Assembly: GCF_020886695.1 (NCBI RefSeq)
Contig: NZ_AP024485.1
Span: 505,001-569,000 of the forward strand
From: Pseudodesulfovibrio sediminis
Lineage (GTDB): Bacteria > Desulfobacterota > Desulfovibrionia > Desulfovibrionales > Desulfovibrionaceae
Direction: 5' to 3'
DNA: 64,000 bases
Shown: positions 2,819-30,063 of the stretch, piece by piece
How the letters are laid out: every line of letters begins with the position of its first letter
Numbering within the stretch: position 1 is the stretch's first letter
Program-made: the position numbers and the translations under genes
Notes under the pieces: generated by a model
Told to the model about the DNA's origin: nothing
Seen by the model: only the letters and a program-made list of their open reading frames with translations
The model's database searches: none

Positions 2819-3516
2819 CTAAAAACACCTATAAAGGGAGAAAACAACAAAAAGGATGATCCCTGTTGCCAGAACGGCATATGCACGTTTTACTCGTAAC
2901 GCCATTAATCCGCCCAGGCTAGCAATAATCCAAAGATGAGCCCATTGAATATTCAAAGAGGCAACCAACCCTGGATACAGGGAAAAAGCGAACTCAAGAA
3001 GGACCTTGAGTATGAGAATAGCCACGAAGAAAACACCCCATGAGATAAGGAATGTCCTTGCTAGTGAACGAAGTATCAATGTACCAGGCAGATTGGGCTT
3101 TTCTGGCTTCCGTACCCAGTTGAGAAGCTTGTTGTAGCTCATTCGTTCACTGTCTCGTATCCACCCTTCTGCCAGCGTCCCAAGCCCGGCCAAGGGCATG
3201 CTTGCAAATAGAATGACCATGATCTGAGCTGGCTGGACAAAACCCAAATAGGTTGTCAGCGAAAGTGCCGAAAAGGTCGCAGCAGTAAGATGAGGAGGAA
3301 TAAATGACCCGACAGGAATCAGATCAAGCCAGAAAAGTTCAAAGAAAATGGCAATGTTGAGGCTGACGGTATATTCCCCTGTAAATACACCCCAGAAAAA
3401 ACCGACAACCAGTGGGCGCTCAAGAAGGCCAAGACTTATGGAGTAACGAAAGAGAGAAAAGAGAGCAAAAAAAAAGCGACCAGGGAAAACCAGGCTATAG
3501 GACTATCCAAGGACAT
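2819..3516 (-). pseudogene. PTS mannose/fructose/sorbose-family EIIC, frameshifted at a T9 run
   Basis: EIIC is the membrane channel component of mannose-type phosphotransferase systems. The ATG at 3516 lies three bases after the EIIB stop and reads 26 codons (MSLDSPIAWFSLVAFF...) to a TAA at 3438-3436. The family-like sequence continues in another frame: FALFSLFRYSISLG, LLERPLVVGFFWG and FTGEYTVSLN, on to the stop at 2819. The switch falls on nine T of the coding strand (A run at 3467-3475). Ten, or seven, would give one open frame of about 232 residues, normal for EIIC. It may be a true mutation, transcriptional slippage, or an assembly error. Several hydrophobic segments remain intact. Confidence 0.8.
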
Positions 3517-3518
3517 GA

Positions 3519-3983
3519 TTAAAACCTCGCCTGGATCGGGTCATTGGGTACACATCGGAAATCGAGCTCCACGCCCTTTCGATTCAGATGACGAAGACAG
3601 GTTTCATCTTCATCGGATAGAGCGACACTGGGGGAAACCTGTTTCTTGCCAGGACTGTAGTGGACATTCCCAATATTCAGAACAGAAAAATCAAAACCGG
3701 AATCAAAAGCTCTTTTGGCATCAGCACAGCTGGAAAAAAGGATGATGATGTCATCTGTGCTTCCGTCTGAACGCGAACCGTTAACAGCTTCTGTGAGCGT
3801 CTCTACAGTGACAAAAGAGCTCTCAACGGTACCGGGAATGGCGAGCGACATGATTTCTTGCTGGAGAACGTCGTTAGCTAATTCATCGTTAGCGACAATA
3901 ACGTTTTTCGCACCAATATACGGCAACCAGGTTTCAATGATCTGACCGTGAATCAAGCGATTGTCTATACGAACAAGAAGCAC
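3519..3983 (-). CDS. PTS mannose/fructose/sorbose-family EIIB
   Basis: A cytoplasmic phosphocarrier of 154 residues that normally passes phosphate from EIIA to the sugar crossing EIIC. The N-terminus MLLVRIDNRLIHGQ carries the family signature with the phosphorylated His at residue 12. I chose the GTG at 3983 because AGGG sits eight bases upstream and the family motif begins right there. A longer frame from 4079 would overlap EIIA heavily and has no family similarity in its extension. It begins 10 bases after the EIIA stop and ends three bases before the EIIC start, so the three are co-transcribed. Confidence 0.9.
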   Translation of the reverse strand: MLLVRIDNRLIHGQIIETWLPYIGAKNVIVANDELANDVLQQEIMSLAIPGTVESSFVTVETLTEAVNGSRSDGSTDDIIILFSSCADAKRAFDSGFDFSVLNIGNVHYSPGKKQVSPSVALSDEDETCLRHLNRKGVELDFRCVPNDPIQARF

Positions 3984-3993
3984 GGTACGAACC

Positions 3994-4431
3994 CTATTTT
4001 TTTGCTTTTTTGCGCAACATGGCGCCCGCAACTTTAATGCCCTGCTGGCCTGCTGATTCAGCAGTCGCAGCCAACGCATCCAATGTCATGTCACGGGACT
4101 GCAGAGTGGCAACCACCATGGGCAGGTTTACACCGGTGATCACTTCGAGATTTTCGGATTTCATAAGCGAAAGACTCATGGTCGTTGGCGAGCCACCAAA
4201 AAGGTCAGTCAAGGCCATGACGCCTTTTCCCTGTTCCACAGACTGGATGGCAGACCTGATGGATTCCATGGTTTCATCAACACCTTTGTTGACGTCCACA
4301 CCAATAGCCAAACAGTTTTCCTGCTTGCCCATGACGGTCTCGGCCGCTGCCAGGAGCGATTCCCCGAAAGTGCCGTGAGTGACAAGAACCACGCCGACCA
4401 TTGCTTTTGTATTGCCAGACTTTGCAGTCAT
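3994..4431 (-). CDS. PTS mannose/fructose-family EIIA
   Basis: A 145-residue cytoplasmic phosphocarrier that takes phosphate from HPr. The VVLVTHG segment places the phosphorylated His at residue 19. The segment TDLFGGSPTT is the second family signature. The start follows the rapZ stop by three bases. An internal Met at residue 11 is an alternative start closer to the usual family N-terminus. No HPr or enzyme I gene lies in the window, so the phosphate source is elsewhere on the chromosome. Confidence 0.9.
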   Translation of the reverse strand: MTAKSGNTKAMVGVVLVTHGTFGESLLAAAETVMGKQENCLAIGVDVNKGVDETMESIRSAIQSVEQGKGVMALTDLFGGSPTTMSLSLMKSENLEVITGVNLPMVVATLQSRDMTLDALAATAESAGQQGIKVAGAMLRKKAKK

Positions 4432-4434
4432 GAA

Positions 4435-5316
4435 TTATCCAAGTTCCATATGTCTGTGTTCGATCGACATACTATACCCTTTTTTCTTCAGGGCCGCCAG
4501 TACCGACTCAGCCTCCGCAACGGACCTGTGGCGCCCTCCGGTACATCCGATGGCAAGGGTAATACGATATCGACCTTCATCAGCGTACAGTGGGAGAAGG
4601 TAGCTGATGAAATCAGTAAAACGGGTATCAAATTCTTTGCCCACATCAGAGCCAAGCACATATCGTTGGACTTCTGAGTCCAGTCCGTTCAGTTGCTTTA
4701 ACTTTTTGTCAAAATACGGGTTCGGTAAAAAGCGAAGATCAAAGACGAGATCTGCTTCAGTGGGCACACCGTACTTGAAACCAAAGGTCACAATATGCAC
4801 GCGCATCCCGCGACCGGCTTCTTCCAGAGCAGTCCACTTGGTTTGAATGACCCGCCGAAGATCGTGAATGGAATAATCAGAGGTATCAAGAACCATGGCA
4901 GCATCAGTTCGAATAGGAGCCAGGAGTTCTTTTTCCTTCTCCAACGCCTGCTCCAATCCAAGCTTCTTGCTTTCAAGCGGATGCAGCCGCCTGGTCGTAG
5001 CGTACCGGCGCACCAATTCACCCATTTTTGCCTCAAGAAAGAGGACTTGTGGTGAAATGCCGATATCGGCAAAATCCTTTATAGCCTGATCCCATCCAGC
5101 AAGAAACTCCAACTGACGGAGGTCCATACCCAGGGCAAGGCCACGATATTCATTATCGAATTTGAGTATGAGATCCGCAATTTTCGGGGACATTTCCGAG
5201 GGAAGCCCATCAATACAAAAAAAGCCCAAATCTTCAAAGACCTTGAGCGCAGTAGATTTACCGGCTCCGGAAAGGCCGGTGACAATGACGACGGGAAAAG
5301 GATTGGCAATCGTCAT
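4435..5316 (-). CDS. rapZ: RNase adapter protein RapZ
   Basis: RapZ is a nucleotide-binding adapter. In E. coli it binds small RNAs and guides RNase E to control glucosamine-6-phosphate synthase, so it tunes cell-envelope precursor supply. The 293-residue length is typical. The Walker A motif GLSGAGKST is at residues 14-22 and the conserved C-terminal motif GCTGGRHRSV is near residue 260. It lies between ptsN and the EIIA gene, the classical rpoN-hpf-ptsN-rapZ neighbourhood. Whether the E. coli RNA partners exist in this lineage cannot be told from this sequence. Confidence 0.93.
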   Translation of the reverse strand: MTIANPFPVVIVTGLSGAGKSTALKVFEDLGFFCIDGLPSEMSPKIADLILKFDNEYRGLALGMDLRQLEFLAGWDQAIKDFADIGISPQVLFLEAKMGELVRRYATTRRLHPLESKKLGLEQALEKEKELLAPIRTDAAMVLDTSDYSIHDLRRVIQTKWTALEEAGRGMRVHIVTFGFKYGVPTEADLVFDLRFLPNPYFDKKLKQLNGLDSEVQRYVLGSDVGKEFDTRFTDFISYLLPLYADEGRYRITLAIGCTGGRHRSVAEAESVLAALKKKGYSMSIEHRHMELG

Positions 5317-5334: not shown

Positions 5335-5784
5335 TTAAACACTTTTGAGAAGCCCCCACAAAGCCTCGCTCCCCTCGGCCTCATGAAATGCCCGACGGAA
5401 GGATTCGTCTTTGAGCAGACGAGAAATATGCGCCAGAACTCGGAGGTGCATACCTGCCACCTGTTCAGGAGCCAGAACAACAAAAAATATCGTGCATGGT
5501 TTGTGATCCAAAGCATCAAATTCAATACCGGTCTCACTGCGACCGACAATAACAATGACGTTTTCCAGATCTTCCAGTTTGCCGTGAGGGATAGCTATAC
5601 CATCACCAATGCCGGTAGTACCGAGTTTTTCACGTTCGAAAAGGACACGGACCGCCTGGTCCGTGTCCATTTCTGGATATTGTATGCCCACAGGGGCGAT
5701 AAGTTCTTTCAACACATCCGATTTGGATTCGGACGTCAATACGGGAAGGACAAGCTCCTTCGCCAAATAGTCACCAAGTTTCAT
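5335..5784 (-). CDS. ptsN: PTS nitrogen-regulatory EIIA component
   Basis: A 149-residue phosphoacceptor of the regulatory PTS branch. It transports no sugar and instead controls potassium uptake, sigma-54-linked functions and other targets, depending on phosphorylation. The active-site segment GIGDGIAIPHGK puts the phosphorylated His at residue 67. The stop codon is 18 bases before rapZ and the start is two bases after the hpf stop, so translation is probably coupled. Position directly in the rpoN cluster supports EIIA-Ntr over a fructose-type EIIA. Confidence 0.92.
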   Translation of the reverse strand: MKLGDYLAKELVLPVLTSESKSDVLKELIAPVGIQYPEMDTDQAVRVLFEREKLGTTGIGDGIAIPHGKLEDLENVIVIVGRSETGIEFDALDHKPCTIFFVVLAPEQVAGMHLRVLAHISRLLKDESFRRAFHEAEGSEALWGLLKSV

Positions 5785-5786
5785 AT

Positions 5787-6329
5787 TTAGTTTCCAGGGT
5801 CGATCAGTCCGTAATCGCCATTTTTTCTTTTATAGATTACATTTACGCCCTCAGTTTCCGCATTGCGAAAAACCAGGAAATCATTTTCAAGTACATCAAG
5901 TTGCATGGCTGCTTCGTCAACGGACATGGGCTTGGGCACATACTCATCCGTACCGACGATGGTAGGCACAGCTTCCGGAACGAGGTCCTGGAAGGACAAG
6001 ACACTCATCTGCCCCATCTTGTTTGCACGCGCTTTCCTGATACGGCTCTTCTGCTTTTCGCGCATCTTTCTGAGTTGGGCTTCCAGCTTGTCGAGAACCA
6101 TGTCAATAGTCGCATACATGTCCTCAGAGGCCTCATAGGCCGATATGTGAATGCCATCCGAATTCAGAATTACATCCGCCATATGGCGAAACTTTTCGAC
6201 CAGCAAATTGACCTGGAGATCGGCTTCCGAATCAGAAACGTATTTGGCGACCTTTTCAAAACGCTTTTCTGCGTAACCCTTGAGATGATCAGACGGCTCA
6301 AAGTTCTTGAAAGTGAAGCTGATGTTCAT
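5787..6329 (-). CDS. hpf: Ribosome hibernation-promoting factor, long form
   Basis: It binds the decoding region of resting ribosomes and dimerises them into inactive 100S particles. At 180 residues this is the long form: an N-terminal S30AE domain (about 1-100) and a C-terminal dimerisation domain (about 120-180) with the VLENDFLVFRNAETEGVNVI and YGLIDPG segments. The two are joined by a charged, basic linker. It lies 40 bases after rpoN and two bases before ptsN, as in many proteobacteria. Confidence 0.93.
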   Translation of the reverse strand: MNISFTFKNFEPSDHLKGYAEKRFEKVAKYVSDSEADLQVNLLVEKFRHMADVILNSDGIHISAYEASEDMYATIDMVLDKLEAQLRKMREKQKSRIRKARANKMGQMSVLSFQDLVPEAVPTIVGTDEYVPKPMSVDEAAMQLDVLENDFLVFRNAETEGVNVIYKRKNGDYGLIDPGN

Positions 6330-6369
6330 ACGCTGCCTCCTGGTTTAGAGTGCGGCAAACCGTACTGGT

Positions 6370-7779
6370 TTAGAAGTACTGCTTGCGTTTCGAAGAAGAA
6401 GGAATACCCATTGCCGAACGATATTTGGCGACTGTGCGCCTGGCGATGTTTACCTCAAGCTTTTCCTTGAGTTCATCCCCAATCTTTTCGTCACTGAGCG
6501 GTTTCTTCGTGTCTTCTTCTGCTATCATTTGCTTGATAAGCGCCTTGACGCTTTCTGAACCCACCTGCGAACCATCATCCAGTTCCAGGGCAGAATTAAA
6601 GAAGAACTTTAACTCAAAAATCCCATACGGAGTTGAGACATACTTACTAGTAGTAATACGGCTCACCGTGGATTCATGCATCTCAATATCCTCAGCTACC
6701 TCCTTGAGGATCAGGGGTTTGAGCTTTGTCACACCCTCCTCGAAAAAGGCTCGCTGGAAGCGGACAATGCTCTCAACTACTTTATACAATGTTCTCTGCC
6801 GCTGGTACAGACTTTTCATCAACCATGCGGCAGATCGCATCTTTTCCTGAAAATACTCTTTTTCCTTGCCCGCTGCACCCTGCATGGAATCCATGTAGAA
6901 GGTGTTCATCTGCAACCGCGGCATGCCGTCCTCGTTCAAGATGATGACGAACTCCTCACCATACTTGTAAACAAACACATCCGGGCTGACATAATGGGGC
7001 TCGGTACTGGAAAAATTGGTTCCCGGCATGGGATCAAGGGTCTGCATGAGGTCAAGATAACTCTTGAGCTCATCCATGGAGATCTTGAACTTGCGGGCAA
7101 GGGGCTTGTATCGATTCTTCTCAAGGTCTTCCAGATGATCTGTGACCAACGAGACAAGAATGGGGTCCGTGTACCCAAGGACCTCCATCTGAACGAGCAG
7201 ACACTCCTGCGGAGTGCGTGCGCCAATGCCTATGGGATCAAGGCGTTGGATGCGTGAAAGAACGTATTCAATCTCCTCTTCGGTGGCTTGCACCATGGAT
7301 TGAATCTCTTCCATTGAGGCCTGAAGATAGCCATTGGTATCAACGTTACCAAGGATGATCTCACCGATAGCCAATTCGTGTTCGGAAAAATTCGAGAGAC
7401 GCATCTGCCAGTTGAGATGCCCTTCAAGAGACGGCTTGGAAGCCAATCTGGCCTCAAAAGACATACCCTCTTCCGGCATTTCCGCGTCACGGGCTGCAGA
7501 CTGCTTGGAGGTGCTGGAGAATTCGCCTAGATAATTCTCCCAATCCGCATTGCGAACCAGCTCTTCTTCGGCCTGAGATTCTGTCATCGCCTCTGAGGAA
7601 TCAGAAACATCAGCCTCGGTTTCGCTCTCATCGAGAAAAGGATTCTCCATGAGTTCCTGCTGCACTGTTTCGAGCAATTCCAATCGCGAAAGCTGCAACA
7701 GCTTGATAGCCTGCTGCAACTGCGGTGTCATAACCAGTTGCTGAGAGAGCTTAAGCTGTTGTCTGAGTTCCAATCCCAT
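6370..7779 (-). CDS. rpoN: RNA polymerase sigma-54 factor
   Basis: The alternative sigma factor that reads -24/-12 promoters and needs AAA+ activators. All regions are visible in the 469 residues: region I, rich in Gln and Leu (LKLSQQLVMTPQLQQAIKLL), an acidic region II at about 50-90, the core-binding domain, the helix-turn-helix with HESTVSRITTSKYV, and the C-terminal RpoN box ARRTVAKYR. The start is well placed by region I, although the ribosome binding site is weak (AAGG). A 215-base gap separates it from lptB, so it may have its own promoter. Confidence 0.96.
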   Translation of the reverse strand: MGLELRQQLKLSQQLVMTPQLQQAIKLLQLSRLELLETVQQELMENPFLDESETEADVSDSSEAMTESQAEEELVRNADWENYLGEFSSTSKQSAARDAEMPEEGMSFEARLASKPSLEGHLNWQMRLSNFSEHELAIGEIILGNVDTNGYLQASMEEIQSMVQATEEEIEYVLSRIQRLDPIGIGARTPQECLLVQMEVLGYTDPILVSLVTDHLEDLEKNRYKPLARKFKISMDELKSYLDLMQTLDPMPGTNFSSTEPHYVSPDVFVYKYGEEFVIILNEDGMPRLQMNTFYMDSMQGAAGKEKEYFQEKMRSAAWLMKSLYQRQRTLYKVVESIVRFQRAFFEEGVTKLKPLILKEVAEDIEMHESTVSRITTSKYVSTPYGIFELKFFFNSALELDDGSQVGSESVKALIKQMIAEEDTKKPLSDEKIGDELKEKLEVNIARRTVAKYRSAMGIPSSSKRKQYF

Positions 7780-27816: not shown

Positions 27817-30063
27817 ATGAATATTGAAAAAAAAATGGAAGAGCTCCTGGCTCGGGTCAACTATGCTCGAGACATTCTGGGTAATAAGGCCCGTCCTGAA
27901 CTGGACGCCTTTGCCAAGGAAATCAGTGAGTTCACAATAACGAACAAGGACCTTCCCGAGGATCAGGCCATCCGGGCAGTGAACTCGCTGGACAAGCGAC
28001 TCACCACCATGGAATCAGCCATAGACGCACAACTTACGGCCATGGACAAGGTTCGCATTGTCCGTCACCCCCAACGTGCCTGCCTCAAGGACATTCTCGA
28101 GAATGTCTACGACAACTACACGGAAATCGGCGGTCAGGACGAACACTCCATTGACCCCGGCATGCTCATTGCGCGTGCATATATCACTCGTCATCGCGGC
28201 AAAAAGGTCATCCACCAGCCTGTCATGGTGGTCGGGCAGGAGAAAGGCCACGGCGAAGAGTTTCGTAACGGTGGTTCCATCAAGCCATGGGGAAACAGCA
28301 AGGCGCTGAAATACATGAAAGTCGCCGCGCTTGAACAGATTCCCATTCATGCCTATGTGAATACGCCGGGCTCCTATCCTGTCGAAGATTTTCCAGGAGC
28401 AGCCCAACAGATCGCAGAAAATATCTACGAGATGTCCGGCCTTGATGTGCCCATCATCGCCATTTTCTCTGAAGGCGGTTCCGGTGGTGCCGAAGCCATC
28501 GGCATGGCGGACAAACGACTGATGCTGTCCCACGGATACTATTCCGTTATTTCTCCTGAGGGAGCCGCGGCCATTGAAGGCCGTATTCGCGGCTCACAGC
28601 GCGCACCGACCGAGCTGATCGAGTCATGCGCCATGGCTCAAAAGATTACAGCCCAGGACAACCTGGCAAATGGCTATATCGATGAAATAATCGAAGAACC
28701 GCCATTAGGTGCCCGCGCAGATCACTTTGATTTCTACAAGCAGGTTAGAGAGCAGATCATTCGCGCCACAGATGAGGTCACACTCTCTGTTCGCGGCATC
28801 CGTCTCTTCCGCGCCATGGCCATACGCCATTTCAAAAAAAATACTGATGTCATCGTTCGCTGGTCTCTCAACGAAAAAGCCAGAGAACGCCTTGTTGCGC
28901 GCCGTTTCAAGAAGTACCGCAAGCTGGCTCAACATGCCTTCAAAGACAACCGTCCCGTTATGGAAAAGCTCTATGCCACCAGTTCCGGCATCGTCTCTTC
29001 CACAACCGGTCTCATTCTCTATGGACTGATCAAGCCTTTTAAACAGCGCATTGGTCGTATCATAGAGGAAGTCAGGGACGAAACGCATGTGATTACAGCC
29101 AAGATCAGCGGCTTTTTCGGCAACATGCTGAAAAGTGTCGGCATCACATCCAGTGATGAAAAACAAAAAGAGATGGAACTCACGGGGCTGTCTGAAGCTG
29201 AACCGATCGAAGTCGCCGTGCCGACCAATGGCGGGTATAAATCCCCTCAGGCGCTCATCGATCGTGAGATTTCCTGCCCCCACTCCCAAAAAAGAGGCTG
29301 TCTCGACATCTGGGCCAGAGACCTCTTTACTGATTTTGCCGGAGTTTGCCCGCATTGTGGATACAACTTTCCCATGGAATATCAGTGGTATCTTCATAAT
29401 GTTTTTGATGAAGGCTCTGTCCGTGAATTCAATCACGACATCGCCTCCGGTAACCCGACAGGCTTTCCGAACTTCGAGGAACGCGTACAGGCCGCCAAGG
29501 ATAAAACCGGGTTGCAATCCAGCTGCATGACCTTCAACGCCTCGCTTGAAGGTATTCGCCTGACCTGCGCCACCCTTATCGCCAACTTCAGAGGCGGTTC
29601 CGTGGGCGCAGCCGAGGGTGAAAAGTTCATCCGCGCACTGGAATTGGCCCAGACCAAACATCAGCCTTTCCTCGCGTACATCCATGGTACAGCCGGTATC
29701 CGTATTCAGGAAGGCGTAAACGGCCTGATCCAGATGCCTCGCGTCACCATGGCCGTGCGCAAATATATTGAGGAAGGTGGACTCTACATCGTCCTGTACG
29801 ATACCAATTCCTATGCTGGCCCGGTTGCATCCTTCCTTGGCTGCTCCCCCTACCAGTATGCAGTTCGCTCCTCCAGACTGGGTTTTGCCGGCCCTGGCGT
29901 CATTAAAGAGACGACCGGCATCGAGATACCCCCGGATTACCACAACTCCTTCAAAGCCCTTTCCAGAGGGCATATTCAAGGCGTGTGGAGCCGCAAGGAT
30001 ATCCGCAAGAACCTGCACCAGTCTTTCCTGACTATTGGTGGCAGAAACCTCTACTACCGTTAG
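27817..30063 (+). CDS. Fused acetyl-CoA carboxylase carboxyltransferase (AccA-AccD order)
   Basis: A 748-residue protein. The N-terminal part (about 1-340) resembles the alpha subunit: KVIHQPVMVVGQEKG, VNTPGSYPVEDFPGAAQQIA and IFSEGGSGGAEAIGMAD. A central region (about 340-480) is lineage-specific. The C-terminal part (about 485-748) resembles the beta subunit, with a zinc ribbon (Cys near 487, Cys near 495, CPHC at about 510-513) and crotonase-fold segments GSVGAAEGEKFIRALELA and YAGPVASFLG. It should transfer the carboxyl group from biotin to acetyl-CoA. In most bacteria AccA and AccD are separate. A strong terminator follows. Confidence 0.87.
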   Translation: MNIEKKMEELLARVNYARDILGNKARPELDAFAKEISEFTITNKDLPEDQAIRAVNSLDKRLTTMESAIDAQLTAMDKVRIVRHPQRACLKDILENVYDNYTEIGGQDEHSIDPGMLIARAYITRHRGKKVIHQPVMVVGQEKGHGEEFRNGGSIKPWGNSKALKYMKVAALEQIPIHAYVNTPGSYPVEDFPGAAQQIAENIYEMSGLDVPIIAIFSEGGSGGAEAIGMADKRLMLSHGYYSVISPEGAAAIEGRIRGSQRAPTELIESCAMAQKITAQDNLANGYIDEIIEEPPLGARADHFDFYKQVREQIIRATDEVTLSVRGIRLFRAMAIRHFKKNTDVIVRWSLNEKARERLVARRFKKYRKLAQHAFKDNRPVMEKLYATSSGIVSSTTGLILYGLIKPFKQRIGRIIEEVRDETHVITAKISGFFGNMLKSVGITSSDEKQKEMELTGLSEAEPIEVAVPTNGGYKSPQALIDREISCPHSQKRGCLDIWARDLFTDFAGVCPHCGYNFPMEYQWYLHNVFDEGSVREFNHDIASGNPTGFPNFEERVQAAKDKTGLQSSCMTFNASLEGIRLTCATLIANFRGGSVGAAEGEKFIRALELAQTKHQPFLAYIHGTAGIRIQEGVNGLIQMPRVTMAVRKYIEEGGLYIVLYDTNSYAGPVASFLGCSPYQYAVRSSRLGFAGPGVIKETTGIEIPPDYHNSFKALSRGHIQGVWSRKDIRKNLHQSFLTIGGRNLYYR

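Follow-up and report, generated by a model that had tools for sequence, protein, structure and literature searches.

The EIIC gene of a PTS locus in Pseudodesulfovibrio sediminis is divided between two reading frames at a run of exactly nine T's, and programmed transcriptional slippage at this T9 tract is the probable means by which EIIC is expressed. Judging from the comparison of relatives, the tract together with its frame arrangement is a fixed element conserved under selection order-wide. The locus is situated in a window of 64,000 nucleotides (the whole stretch of DNA analysed; NZ_AP024485.1, positions 505,001 to 569,000), to which the coordinates of its features refer.

Organization of the split EIIC gene and its PTS partners

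On the minus strand, the EIIB stop codon (TAA, 3521-3519) is followed by two bases and then by the EIIC ATG (3516-3514), a spacing that replaces the three bases given in a first-pass annotation of this DNA. From this ATG the zero frame runs for 26 codons (MSLDSPIAWFSLVAFFLLSFLSFVTP) and ends at a TAA (3438-3436), this start segment coupled to the EIIB stop (3436-3516) being backed by the upstream zero-frame coding signal observed in relatives. Within it lies the T9 tract (A9 on the plus strand, 3467-3475), which is read as GCT TTT TTT TTG in the zero frame and as TTT TTT TTT GCT in the EIIC frame. An open EIIC-like frame extends from 3502 to a stop codon ending at 2819; its first ATG, GTG or TTG in this genome is a TTG at 3247. 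Reading the remainder of the gene (2819-3466, minus strand; 215 codons plus stop) requires a -1 shift or one added nucleotide in the mRNA. The coordinates and both frames bear out the earlier claim of a gene split at a nine-T homopolymer, and agree with the estimate of about 232 residues for the rebuilt protein.

The remainder matches the Pfam domain EII-Sor (PF03609) just above threshold (E value 8e-7; 29.2 bits, cut-off 26.3). A profile constructed from 36 downstream pieces found six PDB sequences at E <=0.01, all of which are named man-PTS EIIC. Furthermore, a fold search with a structure model of the downstream piece (mean pLDDT 89) returned man-PTS entries in all of the ten best PDB places (E 0.005-0.03, none below 0.001; TM 0.52-0.67 by query length). 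The match to the NCBIfam IIC models (AgaW) is far under the cut-off (24.3 of 300 bits).

The minus-strand cluster has the order rpoN - hpf - EIIA_2 (ptsN-like) - rapZ - EIIA (mannose family) - EIIB - EIIC - manganese-dependent inorganic pyrophosphatase. The upstream genes rpoN, S30EA/hpf and EIIA_2 were located by frames and domain matches (5335-7779), and are followed by rapZ (4435-5316; NF003828 above cut-off), the mannose-family EIIA (3994-4431; PF03610) and an EIIB of the mannose/sorbose family with a GTG start (3519-3983; PF03830), while the pyrophosphatase is the next gene downstream of EIIC (1803-2723; NF003877 above cut-off). This EIIC is the sole EIIC match in its genome. The genome contains one EIID match, away from EIIC, which is followed by HPr and then, directly after HPr, by a PEP-utilizer domain (PF02896) in a 594-residue frame; this frame fits EI, the domain occurring in non-EI enzymes too. 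The PTS parts are present in the genome, split over two loci. Upstream of EIID (L133:222-1434, same genome), two adjoining and similar 183-residue membrane ORFs resemble a duplicated transporter subunit, and this pair may be BioY-like.

Conservation of the tract and its frames among relatives

Relatives were retrieved by protein similarity with the EIIC part downstream of the tract, so that the tract itself had no role in finding them. In the genus, an EIIC match was obtained in 34 of the 36 genomes searched, and 31 of these 34 carry T9 at the same place, which is the outcome of the comparison with sister genomes that the first-pass annotation had proposed as a check. In the order, which we take to be Desulfovibrionales from the genus names, 228 of 297 genomes have an EIIC match, and from this larger set the tract was read in 126 loci obtained in the relatives and order searches. 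A named set from a second collection contains T9 in 71/78 loci, and its genera include Pseudodesulfovibrio, Nitratidesulfovibrio, Solidesulfovibrio, Halodesulfovibrio, Humidesulfovibrio, Desulfonatronospira, Desulfomicrobium, Desulfonauticus and Desulfovibrio. Duplicate rows (L001, L044, L045, L046) and rows without EIIB (L097, L125) were dropped before counting, and the 204 loci were reduced to 171 distinct ones (33 being identical at the site), of which 157 possess T9, four T8, two T10, one T7 and seven no in-phase run. Considering that the whole 3.76 Mb genome contains 52 pattern hits for T9/A9 (representing 48 distinct runs) and that 157 of the 171 distinct loci share the tract at one and the same position, chance is no serious option.

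At several loci (L068-L071, L079-L082, L091 and L092) EIIC is located apart from EIIB, with 86 to 270 nt between the EIIB stop and the tract. These loci keep both T9 and the -1 relation, and the shift is therefore independent of EIIB coupling.

A start codon (ATG, GTG or TTG) in the frame that requires the shift is present within 75 nt upstream of the tract in 156/157 T9 loci; in the same interval, an EIIC-frame start is absent in 116 of these 156 and also present in 40. When ATG alone is considered, the 157 loci are distributed over shift frame only (144), both frames (7), neither (5) and EIIC frame only (1). Reinitiation, according to which translation would begin in the EIIC frame close to or past the tract, is consistent with those 40 loci, where the upstream start (an ATG in 7) is open to the tract and another start may thus be in use, and with an ATG that recurs 18 nt upstream of the tract in L008, L010, L047, L049, L051 and L052. 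It is nevertheless very unlikely in view of the 116 loci without such an upstream start, of the 87/157 loci in which the EIIC frame has no usual start anywhere between -66 and +45 relative to the tract, and of the present genome, where the first one (3247) is placed beyond family-invariant residues; moreover, it leaves T9 unexplained. When the earliest start in this 75-nt interval is taken, the length of the zero-frame product ranges from 17 to 93 codons (median 28) and amounts to 26, 27, 28, 29 or 31 codons in 95/156 loci; its stop falls 0 to 75 codons downstream of the tract. A functional role for this short peptide was also considered and received no clear support.

Comparison of 47 independent close pairs over the 201 nt that follow the tract gave 256/91/1005 differences at EIIC-frame codon positions 1/2/3 and a median dN/dS of 0.071 (46 usable pairs), values which indicate that the downstream part is under purifying selection. 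For the 24 nt upstream, the close pairs exhibit 67/30/108 differences by zero-frame codon position. Entropy by codon position across all 156 loci is 1.63/1.42/1.69 upstream (zero frame) and 1.09/0.66/1.69 downstream, the excess at position 3 being slight upstream and clear downstream. These patterns reveal an apparent coding signal on both sides of the tract, upstream in the zero frame and downstream in the EIIC frame. Concerning composition, the genes' own Phe codon use predicts TTT TTT TTT in approximately 28 of the 156 loci; Ala/Gly codons of the same genes end in T in 807 of 6317 instances (12.8%, and 6% in the 66 loci with a GC content of at least 60%), whereas the codon preceding the tract does so in all. 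No other homopolymer of at least nine was encountered in the downstream part of the 156 genes.

Homopolymers are often miscalled, and one relative (L032, from genome G015) looks broken twice, its T10 being followed some 80 nt later by another frame break at a G7 run, which would fit a sequencing error or a decaying pseudogene. Against this, the same T9 is found in 157 distinct loci from many assemblies and the downstream part is under purifying selection, which reduces the probability of such an origin to a negligible level. For the group as a whole, assembly error and pseudogene were rejected on the grounds of T9 conservation and purifying selection. Of the two alternative origins raised in the first-pass annotation, a miscalled homopolymer is contradicted by the relatives, which mostly contain T9 and not intact-frame lengths, and a decayed gene by the strong conservation of the downstream frame. 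L032 itself is likely a truly decayed copy, or the result of two sequencing errors.

The tract is often lost or of another length where the shift is unneeded and complete where it is needed, and among the 171 distinct loci there is no clear case of a run other than nine at a locus requiring the -1 shift. EIIC-frame starts are present in L033, L100 and L128 (T8), in L035 and L234 (T10; L035 represents the same site as the Salidesulfovibrio brasiliensis locus L174) and, with no run, in L072, L073, L110, L114 and L214. Locus L131 (T8) is ambiguous, with the conserved start out of frame and a later ATG in frame, and L226 is cut by a contig end. The class with no in-phase run (n=7) is made up of L032, L241 (identical at the site to outgroup L257) and five in-frame loci. 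The shift is dispensable, as shown by at least ten in-frame loci. At L065 (genome G243), T9 is kept though the gene is in frame through another upstream change, and a shift-frame start is lacking; since this gene is in frame, slippage there would reduce EIIC and not increase it.

Phase variation, in which replication slippage in the tract would turn EIIC on or off between cells, accords with the known capacity of homopolymers to vary in this manner and with the existence of in-frame T8 and T10 relatives. However, the on/off variation in length expected of a phase-variable contingency gene was not observed in the comparison across species, where length is near-fixed at the out-of-frame value (T9 in 157, T8 in 4 and T10 in 2 of 171), and this explanation is considered extremely unlikely. 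The same near-invariance leaves unsupported the earlier notion of a switch set by tract length.

A search of the phylum gave an EIIC match in 84 of 297 genomes, 73 of which are outside the order. All 19 loci read outside the order (L253-L271) are devoid of T9 and each has a usual EIIC-frame start; one of them, L259, contains a stop inside its match. On a 188-sequence FastTree tree, the two states require 11 changes whether or not outgroups are included, the count omitting L114, L032 and L226 and the direction of change resting on the outgroups. The simplest history would be a single gain basal to the order, followed by roughly ten losses.

Polymerase slippage and ribosomal frameshifting as candidate mechanisms

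The first-pass annotation had viewed the run as a possible slippage site from which EIIC may still be made. Conservation strongly supports this view. We infer that it is RNA polymerase that slips, rather than the ribosome, and likewise the frequency of the slip and its role in dosage. The distinction is not made by the frame itself, because -1 ribosomal frameshifting and a polymerase adding one base yield the same frame. The locus contains an A/T homopolymer of at least about eight at the junction of two coding frames (T9, with coding signal on both sides) as well as a slippery heptamer in the right phase for -1 frameshifting (zero frame GCT TTT TTT TTG).

Programmed -1 ribosomal frameshifting would leave the mRNA unchanged and make use of either of the two heptamers in the zero-frame tract, U_UUU_UUU or U_UUU_UUG, and its direction fits in 156/157 T9 loci. 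Yet the later heptamer needs only six T's and a G, and all nine T's are kept, including the one at a free third position. Moreover, neither of the stimulators of -1 frameshifting was detected: there is no RNA fold signal near the tract (mean z 0.43 upstream, 0.22 and -0.10 downstream, in a model that excludes pseudoknots), and SD-like tetramers are not in excess (15/156 versus a background of 15%). We regard ribosomal frameshifting as unlikely, though it is the foremost competing explanation, with a chance large enough to be kept in mind. A nascent-RNA hairpin of the type that aids some slippage sites was not seen here either.

Transcriptional slippage is favoured by the nine T's in the loci needing the shift (the later heptamer needing fewer, and the first T being a free third position), by the lack of a fold signal or SD-like excess, and by the fact that nine is a known bacterial slippage length, as described for mxiE and others in the available parts of PMC6260861 and PMC5009743. 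In such a process, RNA polymerase would misalign on T9 in some transcripts, with one U being added (or two lost). On the slipped mRNA, ribosomes from the EIIB-coupled start would cross the tract into the EIIC frame to generate the full-length permease; on the unslipped mRNA, they would halt soon past the tract (26 codons in the present genome), the resulting short hydrophobic peptide presumably being a by-product. EIIC would in this way be kept at a fraction of the level of EIIA and EIIB.

A screen for a second slippage gene in the genome covered 51 of the 52 T9/A9 hits (all but the run at 3750541), which fall in 50 loci, and yielded no convincing case among seven candidates inspected closely, L145, L156, L157 and L288 being flagged with frame pairs outside those seven; the screen required 80 codons on both sides, so that EIIC itself went unflagged and the result constitutes weak evidence. 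Elsewhere in the window, an A9 at 27827-27835 (L141) is located at the start of an open frame and overlaps a possible ATG, with no frame break seen. A search of a plasmid collection for near matches returned none.

Significance and relation to known slippage systems

It is possible, albeit improbable, that the EIIC slip acts as a physiological sensor beyond merely fixing dosage, in which slippage at the weak rU:dA hybrid responds to the UTP level or to RNA polymerase speed. If so, synthesis of the PTS permease would be coupled to nucleotide supply or growth state, and the same cluster also contains rapZ and rpoN. A PTS phenotype is known in this group from D. vulgaris Hildenborough, where, according to the accessible part of PMC10102598, PtsI (DVU0829) is cofit (r = 0.89) with a putative EIIA (DVU1632) and defects are seen when nitrogen comes from alternative sources.

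Gene finders that are blind to the shift would call EIIC broken in most members of the order, and the PTS of these sulfate reducers would then look incomplete, which it probably is not. If slippage is true, its conservation is unusually wide for programmed slippage in a non-mobile bacterial gene. The question of what is gained from the long routing of a transporter subunit through an error-prone step is now testable, the in-frame lineages representing natural controls.

No PTS or Desulfovibrio slippage case is mentioned in the available parts of PMC3711429, PMC1088944 and PMC5009743. Similarly, no earlier report of the EIIC slip was found in the portions of the literature covered, supplements such as the GeneTack cluster lists, which may hold an unlabelled prediction, being outside this scope. 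In the sections at hand of PMC1088944, a survey of 108 genomes for 9A/9T is reported to have produced seven conserved groups, six corresponding to IS elements and one to S. aureus mapW. As in those 9A IS-element genes and mapW, two overlapping frames meet at a conserved run of nine in EIIC; unlike the groups that are mostly IS elements, EIIC is a single-copy transporter gene with T9.

As a way of expressing genes, programmed slippage is already known; what is unusual about the EIIC case is its breadth and the gene concerned. As far as described in the available parts of PMC5009743 and PMC6260861, EIIC resembles Shigella mxiE (T9) and spa13 in having a homopolymeric A/T run of nine or ten close to the break and, on the EIIC side as a proposal, in that the slipped mRNA gives the longer product and the unslipped reading ends early; mxiE and spa13 are plasmid-borne and belong to one secretion system, whereas EIIC is a chromosomal PTS permease with its site kept in many genera. 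Thermus dnaX (PMC5009743, in part) is likewise a non-mobile bacterial gene with a run of nine, slippage in EIIC being proposed, but its slipped mRNAs lead to a shorter product, while the slipped EIIC mRNA would yield a nearly whole protein. Finally, prfB, as outlined in the consulted portion of PMC12421855, shares with EIIC a widely conserved shift near the gene start, although the prfB shift is +1, ribosomal and at a stop codon, and EIIC needs a -1 shift at a homopolymer for which neither SD-like nor structural stimulators were found.
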